Assembly (NCBI GenBank): GCA_000787465.1
Contig: JSYX01000108.1
Span: 1 to 64,000 of the forward strand
From: Thermomucor indicae-seudaticae
Lineage: Eukaryota > Mucoromycota > Mucoromycetes > Mucorales > Lichtheimiaceae
Length of the DNA: 64,000 nt
Direction: 5' to 3'
The notes beneath the pieces were generated by a model, which saw nothing but the letters and a program-made list of their open reading frames with translations, was not told where the DNA came from and ran no database searches. Position numbers and translations under genes: made by a program. Within the stretch, counting starts at the first letter, position 1; every line of letters starts with the position of its first letter. This document shows, piece after piece, positions 20,057-48,891 of this stretch.

Positions 20057-20565
20057 ATGATTGATCTCAGTGCATTCTACATTCCTGCTGGTGAATCACG
20101 GGATGACATGTTGCCAGAAGAAGATATCGTGGATGAAATGATTCGCCATGAACGTGAAGCAACGGAGGCGGCCCGCAAACGAGAACCGGAAAGCAAGGGG
20201 CACAGCTTTTAGCCGAGCAGAAAGAGGAAGAAGAGGAGGAGAATAGAGGCAAAGCAACACGGTCAGTAACGAATAATGACAAGCACCGTCATCAAAATAG
20301 CAGTAAAGTCGTCGACATTGATGCATTGGATATTTGGAGACGCATTGATGAATTGTCTGCATCTTCCTCATACTCTCCCAAAACGACGACAACAACGAGT
20401 AGTAGCGCCTCTAATACGGGTAAAAGCCAGCAAAAGCGGTCGCTGGCGGAGAAGACAAAGGCTCGGTCAATTGAGGAGAAGCACAATTATATCTCTCAGC
20501 TGCAGGCTTATTTGGACGAACTGCAACGACAATACAAGAAAAAGCAAGTGAAAGCACGGTTATAG
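20057..20565 (+). CDS. Small charged coiled-coil hypothetical protein
   Basis: Two exons can be read: 20057-20153 and 20213-20565, joined by a 59-nt intron with a GTGAAG donor and a CTTTTAG acceptor. They give a 149-residue protein. It starts MIDLSAFYIPAGESRDDM, is acidic then Ser/Thr-rich in the middle, and ends in a basic, helix-forming segment (EEKHNYISQLQAYLDELQRQ) likely to form a short coiled coil. I do not recognise the family. Unspliced, the first frame stops at 20210-20212, but a one-base shift in the GGGG run near 20197 would also join the two frames through a charged segment. It is therefore either a spliced gene or a gene with a one-base lesion. Promoter-like TATATAA lies near 19900. 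Confidence 0.55.
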
Positions 20566-23414
20566 TGTCTCCGAAGATAATTAGGATACTATTGTAGGTG
20601 TATCCTTGGATAATCCCAGCCCTTTTCCTCTGTTATTCACTCCCAGTCACATTGATGGAGAAGCAGTGCCGTCTACTTGTCATATCCCTACCTCCTTTCT
20701 GAAGCTCCAGAGTGCGAGCCATGGGCGACTATATGGCCGCATGCTTTGGACTATGAAGTACAAGATAGTTCACAACTATACATTGTAAAGGATCATATTA
20801 CCATGCCTCGAATGCTTGAAGCGTCACTATTCAATAATATACCAACCGTCTTTGTTTGTGTTTTCATTTTTACCGTCAGTTCTAGCTCGATATCTGTGGA
20901 CATGTTCAGGAATCTGTGAAATTTTGAACCTTCGAGCTTTATAGTTTAGTGCAGCGAGCGCTTGATATAAAAACGTATAGGCATAACATCCAATTTTTGT
21001 GTACAAAATCTATGTAAGCGGAAAAATATGGAACAATTCGATAAAGTGATAACCAATCACTGCAGCGCAAGATAGCGTTATATGGAGAGCCAATAGAACC
21101 AGATTTTAACTTCTACTTTCCACGAAAAAGCGTTATCTCTGTCTGTTCCGCCGTTTGGGGGCTCCTCTAGTACAGATATACGCAGATTTTTCCTCACAAG
21201 ACCTGTTATCTATAGGTTCAGGTCATTTTAGATTTTTGGGTCTGCCGAAAAATTCACAAAAAGGTCTTCCTTTGGGGGTGATAATGACCTTGGAGTGCAG
21301 CTTCAATTATAACAAATCCTGCACCACTTGCAGATGGCCTCTACAAAAGTCTGCTGTGGAGAGCGCAATTCGAAAAAAAGTAAACGTTTCTAAAGGGTAC
21401 AAACATTAAGGGTTTTATGATCACGTCTGTAGTTTAGCTTGACCAAATTGTATTCTTCAAAATGCAATTTTTTAATCCAGCTTCTGCAATTATTCGAAAT
21501 GCAACAAAATTGACGGACATTGAAATCGATACAACGAACACCTTCGGCGTTCTCATGGATGATTGTCAATCGAGCGTCCACCGTACTTTGTAATTACCAT
21601 TCGAAAAATGACAATTCGGACCCGTCATCTTGGTGGCACAGGCGGCCTCTGTGTCAGCCGATTGGTTGTTCAAGGCAATCAACTATTAGCCCTTCAAGTT
21701 ACAACTCTCGAATATAAATAAGGAGTGCTCCTGATAATAATAATCATAGACTACGGGATTCCAAAGGATTCGCTTGCTTCGTAATTTCGATTCATCTACT
21801 GACCTTCACGAGAAGACAGCTAACTACCTCCATGGCACTTGCCTTTTGCGGGCGTATTTGGTAAACTCCATGGTCGCTTGAAGCAAAACGGCGATGGCTA
21901 AGTGTATTATTTATTTTTATGATCGTTCCAGTTGTCTCCATATCAGAACTAAATTAGTCTATGCTTTTCAAGCGAAATTTTTTCCAATATTCGTTCAAAA
22001 ACCTATGAATTACCATAACCGGTTTTCGTAATTTTTATCGTGACTTGCATTTCAGGATTGATTTGACATTTCTTTATTGTTAGCCCCTGAGTAAATTTAG
22101 CTGCGGCGTAATACTTGGTGATCTTCTTCGAAGGCCACATACACTAAATACACGGGTCTACTGCATGGTACTGTTAATGCTTTCTTATTTTCCTAAAGCA
22201 GGCACGGCTTGTGAAGGTTCATTTCTCAAAAGATGAAAAGATGAAAAACAGAAGCCAATGCTGCAAAAGATTTCGGGCACTAACATGGAAACGTGTTCCT
22301 GTTATGTGCCTTGGTGAAACAAAATACAGACCCTTGCTTCTCTGGAGCATTTGTTTACGCGTTTTCACACTTCTGTTACCGCTACCGCGACTTATTCTTT
22401 GTATCATCCTCGCAGACCTTTTAAACGCACCTTGTGCTTTTTAGACAGTCCTTTCAACTTTCTTATCCTCTGAAGCCTCTGCTTTGTGCATGGATTTAAC
22501 CCTAAAATTTGGTCTCATTAAAAGCGTGGAAACATATAACTTGGAGTGCTTTGTTTTGCAACGTGAATCATAAGTAATAGCTTCTAATTCTATAATGTAG
22601 AGTGTGACAGTTGAATGTAAAATACTTTTTCTATGTAGACTCTAGTGTCATCTCGTCGCCGCAATCTGCCCAACGCAAATCAATGCTATTTTTCAGCGCC
22701 TGCTTCCGGCAAGAATAGAGATGTCCATGGCGCTTGATATCAAAATTCTATGGCATTGCTGGCTCGCGCTCGTTGGTTAATAAAAAAGCACTAATTTGCA
22801 AGGGTCAATCGAGAAAAAAGAAGACAAAATATAAGTTTGACAACTTTTACGACTGGGGATAATGCGTTCAAAATCGAGAAGCTTTACCCGGGCAGTCAGC
22901 GGGGCATAGCAACTTCATTTATAAAAATTGAGACAGGTAAGCGGATATTCTTGAGTTAAAGAGAATATTCGGTCGCAGAAACAGCGCTTACAATTTTCAT
23001 ACCACTCTACGTTTTTGAGCGCTTAAAGCAAGACTATGAGAAACAGAGGACGGAACTGCAGGGAAAGGAAAAAGAGAGAAACCAGAGATAGGAAATTGCC
23101 TTATGTATTCTATAGTAAACATGCTGAGGAACACTTATTGACTTTTTACAGCAGCGGTAAAGTCTAAGAAAACTCAAACATTCGGGCGACAATTATAGCA
23201 AAATTGTGTGTGATATGCATTACCGGATAAATGATATAGCTTAATTTTCCCATGACCAATATGATACGTGCTGAAAGCTTGTATCCACGTTGGTTTCGCA
23301 GGCATTACTACTTTTCGTCATCAAAGCAGATTCATTTAAAAAACTATGCAAGTATTGATATTCAAGCATTCGAGATTCTGATGAGACAGTAATGCGAAAG
23401 GGATGATGGAAAGT
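20566..23414. other. Gene-poor AT-rich stretch
   Basis: About 2.85 kb without a supportable gene. All open frames are shorter than 95 codons and lack recognisable motifs (for example 20677-20919, 21155-21409, 22211-22444). No long terminal repeat, transposase motif, tRNA or tandem repeat was seen by eye. It follows the small gene at 20057 and precedes the 3' end of BRX1. Confidence 0.5.
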
Positions 23415-34503: not shown

Positions 34504-35309
34504 TTATTGGCTTCGTTTCCTGTAAACGAGCTCTTTCCGTGCCTGCTCAATTTCTCCGTTACGCCTAGCCAGGAGATTAGCTGTCTCGGCTGCTGTGTGC
34601 ACAAGAGCACCCGCCGTGGTCAGCATTCGACCTGCTGTCACTCGGACTAGCTTATGATACCAAACAGATGCAAATGGGACAGCCTGAATCAAACCTGTTT
34701 AACAGAATTAACAAAAAGTTAGGAACATGACCAAACGCGATGAGAACACTTGCCCTGAACTGTCCAATGCTCCTCGTGCATGGCGACTTTGATCAACCGA
34801 GCGCTGTTGTCCACGCTTTTGAAATGCAAAGTGACGATCACGGGCAGCGATAAGTGAGCAAAAGGCATCAGTCGAGGGCATATCGTTTGGGTGAGAAAGA
34901 TATTACAAATGCTGCGTCCATCAAAACAGATATTATCGATTTTCGGTTCAACCTTGTTCAACATTCTCCACACCAAAAGGACACTTTAACGATTAAGAAA
35001 GGAAGGAGATACATTATTCAGAAGGATAGACTGTTGAAGCGTGTCAAAGACCAATACCGTTGAATATGTTCTACACCTGAAGTAGTCAAGATGGGCGATC
35101 TGAACACGGCGTTCTCGAAATAGTATTGCTTCAACGCAAGTTCCTGTCTCCGAATGTCAAACGAAAAGAGATTGCTAATTATGCCTAGACATAGAAAAGG
35201 GAAAACACAAAGGAATTACTATTGGCCACTCGCACGCGATCTGTGCCAAAATCGCCACAAGGTGATCAATACGAAGCAAGTTGATTACGTCAAGTGATTC
35301 AACGCACAT
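34504..35309 (-). CDS. SnoaL/NTF2-like domain protein, function unknown
   Basis: Small protein of several exons. An N-terminal helix (DVINLLRIDHLVAILAQIA) leads into FSFDIRRQELALKQYYFENA and AVFRSPILTTSGVEHIQR. Then come PFAHLSLPVIVTLHF, MHEEHWTVQG and LIQAVPFASVWYHKLVRVTA. The pattern of a YY...AVF..P segment and a late ..EHW strand is that of fungal SnoaL/NTF2-like proteins; the catalytic role of these is unknown. The C-terminal helix is amphipathic and ends at 34504-34506. One intron (34695-34753) uses GC-AG borders. The first intron's exact borders are uncertain. A plus-strand open frame starting at 35313 is probably spurious. Confidence 0.7.
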
Positions 35310-35987
35310 GTAATGAGCTCATCGTATGGGTCTCTTCTGAGAGTTTCCAACTCTGTTGAGATTGAACTGCTCATCGCAGGAAAAGGGAGAAGATCATATG
35401 AATGGGCAGCGAGCACAGGGCACCTGACATGTGACACAAACTCAACGGCGATCTCCATCGCCGACTGCAGCCCTGCACGTCTCTCCCAAAATTGTCACCT
35501 TACTAAGCTTTTCCTATTTAAAGCAGCCCATTGGAAAAAGCGATACAATGACAAGCAACTAACTGCATTTTCTGCTTCTAATACGTTAGCATGTGACTTG
35601 ACTAACGATGGATATTCGAGGGACGTCGAGGACTGGCGTGTTACTAAGGTACCTCTACCAGTTATGAACCAATGGATCTATAAGCGGGTCAGGATAGTAG
35701 GCTCTTATCGACAAGTCTCCCAGGAATGTACTGTACATTGAGACACCTTTACAGTTCTCGAGCTCTTCATGCACAATTAATTTGTCTATCAAGGATCACA
35801 ACGCATAAAAGATACTGTGCCCGCCTAAATACAGCTACTGAATATTTGAACTTGCCGCAAGATGATGATCTCGCGGAGCTTAATGGGAGGCACTCTCTCT
35901 CGCTGCATTTCGCGGATTCCCAATCCTTGAATCAACCGAAAAAAATAGCCGATCTTATTGCTTCTCTTCTCTTTCTCTCTCCCTGAC

Positions 35988-47570: not shown

Positions 47571-48063
47571 TATCCTCTTGTCCATTTCTCTTATACAACT
47601 TCTGCATTTGTATATATCATATACTGCACTAGCTATCACAACATTTATATGCATATATATCTAATACTTTTATAGACGGTCTATTCCAGATCGTTATCCT
47701 CAGGTTCCAAGTAACATGTGCGTTTTGTGATGGTCTAAGTCCTTATTATTACCATCAAACAGCCAGACCACACACCTGAACTATCTCGCGCACGCAAACC
47801 CAGTCGCAGGTGATAGGACCCGCACAATACGTTGCAAGCGTGAACTTGAATGGTCAATCCAAAGAAGGCGTCTTATCAAGCCGTTTCGCGCGACGGGCTA
47901 TAAGCAGGATTTCCTTATCCAGAAAGTCGAAGATTGTGGCTTGTCCAGGGACTTTAAAGTAATAGTCACGTTTGGGTGGCTGGGGCAGAAAAGTTTAAAT
48001 TTGGGGTGGCTGGTAAACATGTTTGAATGCCTTTTCTTCTCTGGAAGTGTAGACTTGTAGACA

Positions 48064-48280
48064 AGTAAGGTATGGGAACAGGTCTCTGGTGGGGAGAGAG
48101 AGGAAGGTCGCAGATGATGGCAAGACGTTGTATTAAGGATTCAATGGGGTCAAGTATGGCCTCTGCTGTCCGCAACAAAAAAAATGCCATAGAATTACTC
48201 TGATGCGCGCTTTTCTTTCTTTCTCTCTTACCAAGTAGGATTCTTTACCGGTGACTAACGTACTCTGGTGTGCGTTTTAG
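48064..48280 (+). ncRNA. Candidate intron-hosted box C/D snoRNA, module 1
   Basis: An intron-like unit: donor GTAAGG at 48064, C box-like ATGATGG at 48114-48120, D box CTGA at 48200-48203, branch-like CTAAC at 48255-48259 and TTTTAG acceptor ending at 48280. The C-to-D distance of about 90 nt suits a box C/D snoRNA. The terminal stem is weak (CGC/GCG only). The internal segment CTCTGCTGTCCGCAA is shared with modules 2 and 3. Strand is inferred from splice signals. Confidence 0.4.
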
Positions 48281-48396
48281 TGCTATGTGTAGGAAAACGT
48301 TTGAAATCGGTTGAAATAAAGACTTTGCGTGGTATTCCGAATCCTCGTTAATTTTTTGCTCATGGCTTTTGAAATAAAAGAAGAGTGTAAGAACGA

Positions 48397-48492
48397 GGGA
48401 TTCCAGATGATGTCTTAAGACGTTGTATTGGATACAAGGAGCCTTTGGGCTTCTGCTGTCCGCAATATGCATATTCTTCTGATGTGAATCCC
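48397..48492 (+). ncRNA. Candidate box C/D snoRNA, module 2 (best formed)
   Basis: A perfect 7-bp terminal stem, GGGATTC (48397-48403) with GAATCCC (48486-48492), encloses a C box-like ATGATGT (48407-48413) and a D box CTGA (48479-48482). That is the layout of a box C/D snoRNA, which guides 2'-O-methylation of rRNA. Total 96 nt. It sits inside an intron-like interval with donor GTAAGA at 48387 and TCTACAG acceptor ending at 48515. The likely guide upstream of an internal D'-like CTGC includes GGAGCCTTTGGGCTT. I cannot name the target. The last base of the C box is T rather than the consensus A. Confidence 0.6.
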
Positions 48493-48599
48493 TTGTCCAG
48501 AAGCATTCTCTACAGGAGTAGGAATTTGAAGTCGATTGAAATAAAGATTTTTCCTCGTCATTCTTTCTTCCGCGCTTTCTTTTGGTGTCAAACAGGGAG

Positions 48600-48780
48600 G
48601 TAGAGAGCAAAGGAGCAGGAAAAGGGCACGCAGATGATGTTTATTAAACGTGGACAACGAAATATGGAACCTTTGCGTTTCTGCTGTTTGAAAACCGAGA
48701 GCTATTATAGCTTGGCTGATGGACTTGCCCATTCTACTTTTCCATCCTTTACAGATGACTAACGTACTCTTGAACTTTAG
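48600..48780 (+). ncRNA. Candidate intron-hosted box C/D snoRNA, module 3
   Basis: Donor GTAGAG at 48600, short stem GGGCA (48624-48628) with TGCCC (48726-48730), C box-like ATGATGT at 48634-48640, D box CTGA at 48716-48719, CTAAC at 48759-48763 and CTTTAG acceptor ending at 48780. The guide-like segment GGAACCTTTGCGTTTCTGCTG resembles module 2 with changes. Confidence 0.45.
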
Positions 48781-48891
48781 TGCTAGCCCTAGTAAGGTGT
48801 TTGAAATAAAGACTTTTCATGAGTTTCCTCCTTTTTTATCATGTTTTCTGAAAGGTGTGTATACGAACCGACGTATCCAGAATTCTGTAGA

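Follow-up and report, generated by a model that had tools for sequence, protein, structure and literature searches.

Whole exon–intron units hosting box C/D snoRNAs have been multiplied in the mammalian SNORD115 and SNORD116 arrays of SNHG14. In Neurospora crassa, 45 of 55 box C/D snoRNAs are intronic and the cluster hosts are UHG-like; CD17, a homologue of U45A/C, guides 18S-Am154 from its D box, and CD16–CD37 form a co-transcribed pair (PMC2780460). Clusters I–III of Rhizopus oryzae are described as intronic in a second study (PMC3596301), and a Lichtheimia genome paper mentions snoRNA (PMC4133162). Cleavage by Schizosaccharomyces pombe Pac1 is described as needing a stem of at least 20 bp, and the same report calls conservation of the intronic snR107–U14 pair in more divergent organisms not evident (PMC12508059). 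Among the titles examined none concerns a Mucorales snoRNA array, and such a paper may still exist.

The locus considered here lies in a 64,000-nt stretch of DNA from Thermomucor indicae-seudaticae (the window), and searches were extended to the genome (24.8 Mb in 735 contigs). It is very probably a non-coding host array for box C/D snoRNAs. The neighbour on the minus strand is a homocitrate-synthase-like gene, whose product is 86–87% identical to proteins of Circinella umbellata, Syncephalastrum racemosum and Lichtheimia, so that the placement in Mucorales is right. Upstream of the array lies the end of an ORF in which Pfam recognises a CCHC zinc knuckle.

Modules, boxes and stems

A first-pass annotation, made from the letters of the DNA, had described three diverged, related modules between 48060 and 48830, and these were recovered by repeat search and alignment, each with CAGATGATG and CTGATG. 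The modules (M1–M3) share pieces of the snoRNA core, the exon and, in M1 and M3, the acceptor region. In the three-way alignment (A1), pairwise identities were 63, 59 and 55%, identical letters filled 75 of the 180 columns with three letters, and identical runs of at least five letters were limited to CAGATGATG, TCTGCTGT and TTGAAATAAAGA (chance expectations 0.04, 0.10 and 0.003, respectively). The D box of M3 is out of register in A1, and a direct pattern search was used for the D boxes. The structural elements are as follows.

48114–48203, + strand: M1 box C/D core (C box ATGATGG 48114–48120, D box CTGA 48200–48203)
48407–48482, + strand: M2 box C/D core (C box 48407–48413, D box 48479–48482; inner stem-loop 48422–48466; UCUGCUGU 48452–48459)
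48634–48719, + strand: M3 box C/D core (C box 48634–48640, D box 48716–48719; UCUGCUGU 48680–48687, then D'-like UUGA 48688–48691)
48088–48232, + strand: M1 terminal stem (arms 48088–48112 and 48204–48232; 25 bp including G–U, with a 1-nt and a 3-nt bulge)
48394–48495, + strand: M2 terminal stem (arms 48394–48405 and 48483–48495; 12 bp, one bulge)
48618–48632 and 48720–48743, + strand: arms of a weak M3 terminal stem (11 bp, 7-nt bulge, two more pairs past an internal loop)
48127–48176, + strand: M1 inner stem-loop (GUUGU/GCAAC, GGAU/GUCC, apical 7 bp; UCUGCUGU 48162–48169)

The boxes are present, with ATGATG at 48114, 48407 and 48634, CTGA at 48200, 48479 and 48716, and 80, 66 and 76 nt, respectively, between the end of ATGATG and the D box. 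The C box reads AUGAUGG/U in all three modules and departs from the RUGAUGA consensus in its last base, a position at which the kink-turn tolerates departures. Each module reads CA-GAU-GAUG / CUGA-UG, i.e. CA, a three-base bulge GAU, and GAUG opposite CUGA followed by UG; in the register of box C/D RNAs, this is a predicted kink-turn with a flush stem I. All three cores, in this register, fall inside 611 bp. The pattern CAGATGATG-N58-88-CTGATG has seven matches in the whole genome, three of them in the array, and the reversed control pattern has two.

Terminal stems are strong in M1, fair in M2, and weak and not specific in M3. Their duplex energies were equalled by 1 (M1), 43 (M2) and 291 (M3) of 3000 random placements in the window, and the 5' arm of M3 pairs better with the 3' arms of M1 (−30.5) and M2 (−22.1) than with its own (−19.4), so the M3 stem is not well supported. 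The 7-bp stem GGGATTC/GAATCCC reported for M2 is present, set 3 nt from each box and not directly outside the boxes as had been stated; the 25-bp stem of M1 was absent from that account. A C/D scan requiring a 4-bp flush stem, which was used on other loci, picks only M1 of the three modules. Whole-module folding gave z-scores of −4.4, −3.6 and −1.4 for M1, M2 and M3, and M1 and M2 each folded better than all of 200 shuffles.

Inside the boxes, M1 and M2 have an inner stem-loop in common (GUUGU..GGAU..hairpin..GUCC..GCAAY), with minimum energies of −17.0 and −19.5 kcal/mol that were reached by 5 and by none of 200 shuffles, respectively; the best M2 fold is slightly shifted from the drawn one (−15.5 as drawn). 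For M3 the shared fold can be drawn and is not preferred (−4.0 versus −8.9, with apical pair probabilities of 0), and its own best inner fold was equalled by 29 of 200 shuffles. Pair covariation, estimated from three sequences only and from an alignment in which the apical helix of M1 is one column out of register, gave two pairs changed on both sides, a result reached by 53 of 500 shuffles. Modelled in this way, the inner stem is likely to be real in M1 and M2 only. Since box C/D guides need neither this stem-loop nor the invariant UCUGCUGU, the array was also considered as some other structured non-coding RNA in which the C/D-like words have arisen by chance. Rfam searches of the window and of the array (the latter at E up to 5) gave no match, which would fit such an RNA, and the kink-turn register occurring three times together with a guide on a known site makes it very unlikely.

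The repetition of the units would also be expected of a relic of a dispersed repeat or transposon, an alternative named at the outset by the first-pass annotation. A whole-array DNA search of the genome, which could miss copies that differ as much as the three modules do among themselves, returned one place only, and patterns of the inner, exon and box words gave no further clustered copies; a repeat relic is exceedingly improbable on these counts. The earlier statement that no protein is encoded was borne out: none of the five ORFs tested across the array reached a Pfam family cut-off (one sub-threshold match, E 0.19), and the longest listed ORF inside it has 121 aa on the opposite strand, which disfavours a protein-coding reading. 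A scan for bacterial promoters and terminators, not applicable to a fungus, gave counts near or below those of shuffles.

Guide segments and rRNA

A 5.8S search of the genome gave a single diverged fragment below the cut-off (L029, C46:54135–54273, 36.8 bits), so that rDNA is probably not assembled in this genome; the 3.1-kb locus contains none of the rRNA marker words that were tried. The rRNA searched was eukaryotic rDNA of other organisms in bacterial assemblies, with an incomplete eukaryotic LSU. Five bacterial-assembly records (L010–L014) match a eukaryotic 28S word, and the two on which Rfam was run, L012 and L013, both carry eukaryotic rRNA, an evident contamination. The reference 18S was that of L013, a match to the complete 1800-nt SSU model followed by the first 25S bases, labelled yeast-like on account of its length. 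The partial rDNA of L010, L011, L012 and L014 and E. coli rrnB were searched in addition.

48190–48199, + strand: M1 guide TAGAATTACT, complementary to 18S GGTAATTCTA and facing A157 (reference 18S numbering, L013)

Complementarity to rRNA next to the D box, expected in advance for the array, was found in one module of three, M1, at a known methylation site, and not in M2 or M3. The ten bases before the D box of M1 pair with 18S GGTAATTCTA at offset 0 over 10 bp (9 Watson–Crick and one G–U), and by the 5-nt rule the fifth base faces A157 of the reference. On a loose score, 42 of 300 shuffled M1 guides do as well somewhere in 18S; a strict rule, applied to 3000 shuffled guides, leaves 53 with such a duplex in 18S, and about 0.0007–0.0018 chance matches are expected for three guides at 25–60 known sites, the number of sites being assumed. 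Such a duplex somewhere in 18S precedes 3 of the 250 CTGA on the + strand of the window, and only the one at 48200 fits the M1 site. The pattern TAGAATTAC-N0-3-CTGA has three genome matches (control one), with TGATG at most 170 nt upstream in M1 only.

Of all offsets within ±25, only +3 and +10 bring the Neurospora sites Am154, Am159, Am161 and Um167 (PMC2780460) into agreement with the reference. Adding Cm411 and Am417 from the same source leaves +3 alone within ±25, which equates Am154 with A157. It is likely that M1, which probably is functional, would act on the 18S adenosine equivalent to Neurospora Am154. The human counterpart of Neurospora Am154 is Am159. Considered as a U45/CD17 orthologue, M1 would address the same 18S site; Rfam, taken up to E 5, gave no match.

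The guide segments of M2 and M3 were matched in 18S as well by 278 and 299 of 300 shuffles, respectively, and the best candidates in the other rRNA, where the eukaryotic LSU is incomplete, are rich in G–U and lie at no recognised site. Complementarity taken anywhere in the cores gave many scattered matches to rRNA. M2 and M3 are best read as putative orphan or decaying paralogues, and the chances that they are functional appear evenly balanced. Somewhat less likely than not, M1 is the only working snoRNA of the three and the other two modules are pseudogene copies. In favour of this are the supported target, which no other module has, the branch and acceptor segment missing from M2, and, in M3, weak stems and a self-complementary segment before the D box. 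This is opposed by CAGATGATG, UCUGCUGU and CTGATG, which are identical in all three modules at pairwise identities of 55–63%, and, for M2, by a fold that no shuffle in 200 equalled.

Within a scaffold that is fixed in the three paralogues, the invariant UCUGCUGU might be a kept second guide acting through a degenerate D' box, leaving the D-box guide free for new targets and making the array a working nursery; this is a speculative reading to which we give little weight. The D' candidate after UCUGCUGU is UUGA in M3 and CCGC in M1 and M2. The invariant CUGCUGU is complementary to LSU ACAGCAG, found twice in L012, and with a D' directly after it the 5-nt rule would point to the C of ACAG[C]AG, which in L012 corresponds to Neurospora 26S-Cm1489 by the tabulated distances between Cm1418, Am1430 and Cm1489 (PMC2780460). 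Only two of the LSU sequences cover the site, and the duplex is 7 bp long in L012 and a pair shorter, 6 bp, in L014 (which reads ACAGCAA); its shortness, the second ACAGCAG in L012 and the poor D' in two of the three modules count against a second guide.

Putative host-gene signals and related loci

The putative parts of the host gene are listed below.

47971–48013, + strand: two copies of TTKGGGTGGCTGG (47971–47983 and 48001–48013), candidate promoter element, from a genome pattern search
48014–48064, + strand: putative exon 1 with pyrimidine-rich CCTTTTCTTCTC, from sequence, its start being predicted
48065–48280, + strand: putative intron 1, read from sequence only (donor GTAAGG 48065, branch CTAAC 48255–48259, acceptor TTTTAG ending 48280)
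48281–48386, + strand: putative exon 2 (TTGAAATAAAGA 48311–48322)
48387–48515, + strand: putative intron 2 (donor GTAAGA 48387, possible acceptor CAG 48513–48515; without CTAAC)
48516–48599, + strand: putative exon 3 (TTGAAATAAAGA 48536–48547)
48600–48780, + strand: putative intron 3 (weak donor GTAGAG 48600, branch CTAAC 48759–48763, acceptor CTTTAG ending 48780)
48781–48830, + strand: putative last exon (TTGAAATAAAGA 48801–48812, AAUAAA-like)

An intron-like donor and an AG acceptor had been assigned to every module. Two of the donors, GTAAGG at 48065 and GTAAGA at 48387, are good and the third, GTAGAG at 48600, is weak; the acceptors hold for M1 and M3, and M2 has only the possible CAG at 48513–48515. 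The CTAAC said to be common to two modules was located at 48255 (M1) and 48759 (M3), about 20 nt before TTTTAG and CTTTAG. About 40 nt including the branch and acceptor, present in M1 and M3, are missing from M2, which may not be a proper intron any more, so that a single intron, 48387–48780, could hold both M2 and M3. For comparison, two introns of the homocitrate synthase gene, with boundaries set by eye, start GTAACG and GTAAGC and end TAG. Hairpins folded over the presumed exon junctions showed, by eye, no clear long stem of the S. pombe kind.

Elsewhere in the genome, a U14 match was obtained on the minus strand of contig C98 (L027, ~35212–35567; RF00016, 60 bits, below the 64-bit cut-off); upstream of it is an intronic C/D snoRNA that matches snR107 weakly (RF04328, 28.9 bits, E 0.024). 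The box-flanking stems of U14 and this snoRNA measure 8 and 7 bp, in registers one base apart, and the locus suggests a candidate fungal snR107/snR190–U14 pair in Mucorales. Further along the same strand is a weak snoR1 match (RF00345, 26.8 bits). A second U14-like locus (L028; C74, ~20556–20651; 45.5 bits, below the cut-off) is followed by CTAACG...TTTTAG and the exon word AAAATAAAGATT.

The exon-like parts are related, as had been proposed, through the invariant TTGAAATAAAGA in the pieces between modules. The 14-letter AAATAAAGAYTTTT is specific, with three matches in the genome (control none): the array holds two of them, and the third lies in the exon that separates the U14 of C98 from its upstream C/D snoRNA; the first array exon departs from it in the final letter. 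As a genome-wide tag for snoRNA hosts the 12-letter AAATAAAGAYTT was rejected (19 matches, control 21). Its 16 matches outside the array have C/D candidates at the U14 locus only, in a scan that picks just M1 of the array, and several of the other sites resemble gene ends by eye. The exon word is read as a putative poly(A)-signal-like element. With AAUAAA in every exon copy, these gene-end-like AAATAAAGAYTT sites and a 25-bp M1 stem that exceeds the Pac1 minimum of 20 bp (PMC12508059), the units could be tandem mini-genes with poly(A) signals of their own, from which an RNase III would excise the snoRNAs at long stems and no splicing would occur. Such an arrangement is unlikely, given the good donors at 48065 and 48387, the two occurrences of CTAAC with an acceptor, the M2 and M3 stems of under 20 bp, and a distance of only ~70 nt from the AAUAAA of a unit to the next stem, which leaves scant room for a promoter.

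TTKGGGTGGCTGG has seven matches in the genome (control none). The two copies at the array start 94 and 64 nt ahead of its first donor. Of the five elsewhere, one precedes the ATG of an RPS29 gene (PF00253) by 64 nt and one that of an XRN exonuclease gene (PF03159) by 88 nt; of the remainder, one lies beside an MLLE-domain exon (L059), one by eye in coding sequence (L057) and one at L058. Rfam gave no match at the five other loci. A role of TTKGGGTGGCTGG as a general snoRNA promoter word was rejected: none is found near the C98 U14 with up to three mismatches, and the second U14-like locus has only poor three-mismatch matches. AATTTGGGTGGCTGG stands upstream of the RPS29 and XRN genes (loci L060 and L061) and a near-identical word stands twice upstream of the array; words of this type form a candidate promoter element for the ribosome-related genes of the fungus.

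Preferred reading and known systems

The locus is best read as a putative UHG-like snoRNA host gene enlarged by unit duplication. The exon word common to the U14 locus and the promoter word common to RPS29 and XRN fit a host gene, and the proposal that it grew by copying whole intron–exon units, the guides diverging, gains support from the related exon word and from the acceptor region of M1 and M3. Boxes, register, repeats, the M1 complementarity and the finding of no second copy are visible in the DNA itself; that the locus is transcribed and spliced, that its RNAs form snoRNPs and direct methylation, and in which order the units were duplicated, we infer, along the following lines. One intron-plus-exon unit would have become three by local duplication, and the units would be transcribed, presumably by RNA polymerase II, from a promoter of the ribosome-gene type. 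The terminal stem would join boxes C and D into a kink-turn binding the usual C/D proteins, and the snoRNA would be freed from the spliced intron by debranching and by trimming to the stems, the 25-bp stem of M1 possibly being cut by an RNase III. M1 would then direct 2'-O-methylation in 18S at the adenosine that corresponds to Neurospora Am154, and M2 and M3 would retain the protein-binding core with changed guide segments.

So read, the array would be a concrete case of snoRNA birth through duplication of whole intron–exon units in an early-branching fungal order, a gene of an ordinary kind in which the stage of duplication is unusually clear. Along with kept kink-turn cores it would show guides that differ in state, of which one is directed to a conserved site and two have no known target. 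The U14-linked exon word and the RPS29/XRN-linked promoter word would serve as genome-specific tags for annotating snoRNA hosts in the lineage.

The mammalian SNORD115 and SNORD116 arrays consist of dozens of similar copies, whereas three strongly diverged copies are found here. The UHG-like clusters of fungi (Neurospora I–V) resemble the array in their intronic snoRNAs and in a host RNA without a long ORF; the Neurospora and Rhizopus clusters carry different snoRNAs, whereas the units here are paralogues. The mamRNA host of S. pombe (snR107, U14) likewise has intronic C/D snoRNAs in a non-coding RNA, and the RNase III stem used in its processing would have its counterpart in the long M1 stem, whose processing is predicted; unlike the array, mamRNA holds two unrelated snoRNAs and no unit duplication. 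CD17 of Neurospora has 73 nt and a second target, 26S-Gm2875, served from D' (PMC2780460), whereas M1 contains an inner stem-loop and shows no D' that can be recognised. CD17 and human U45 (SNORD45) provide the D-box guide for the 18S adenosine that M1 is predicted to address, and CD17, like the putative M1, belongs to the C/D snoRNAs encoded in introns of a cluster host (PMC2780460).
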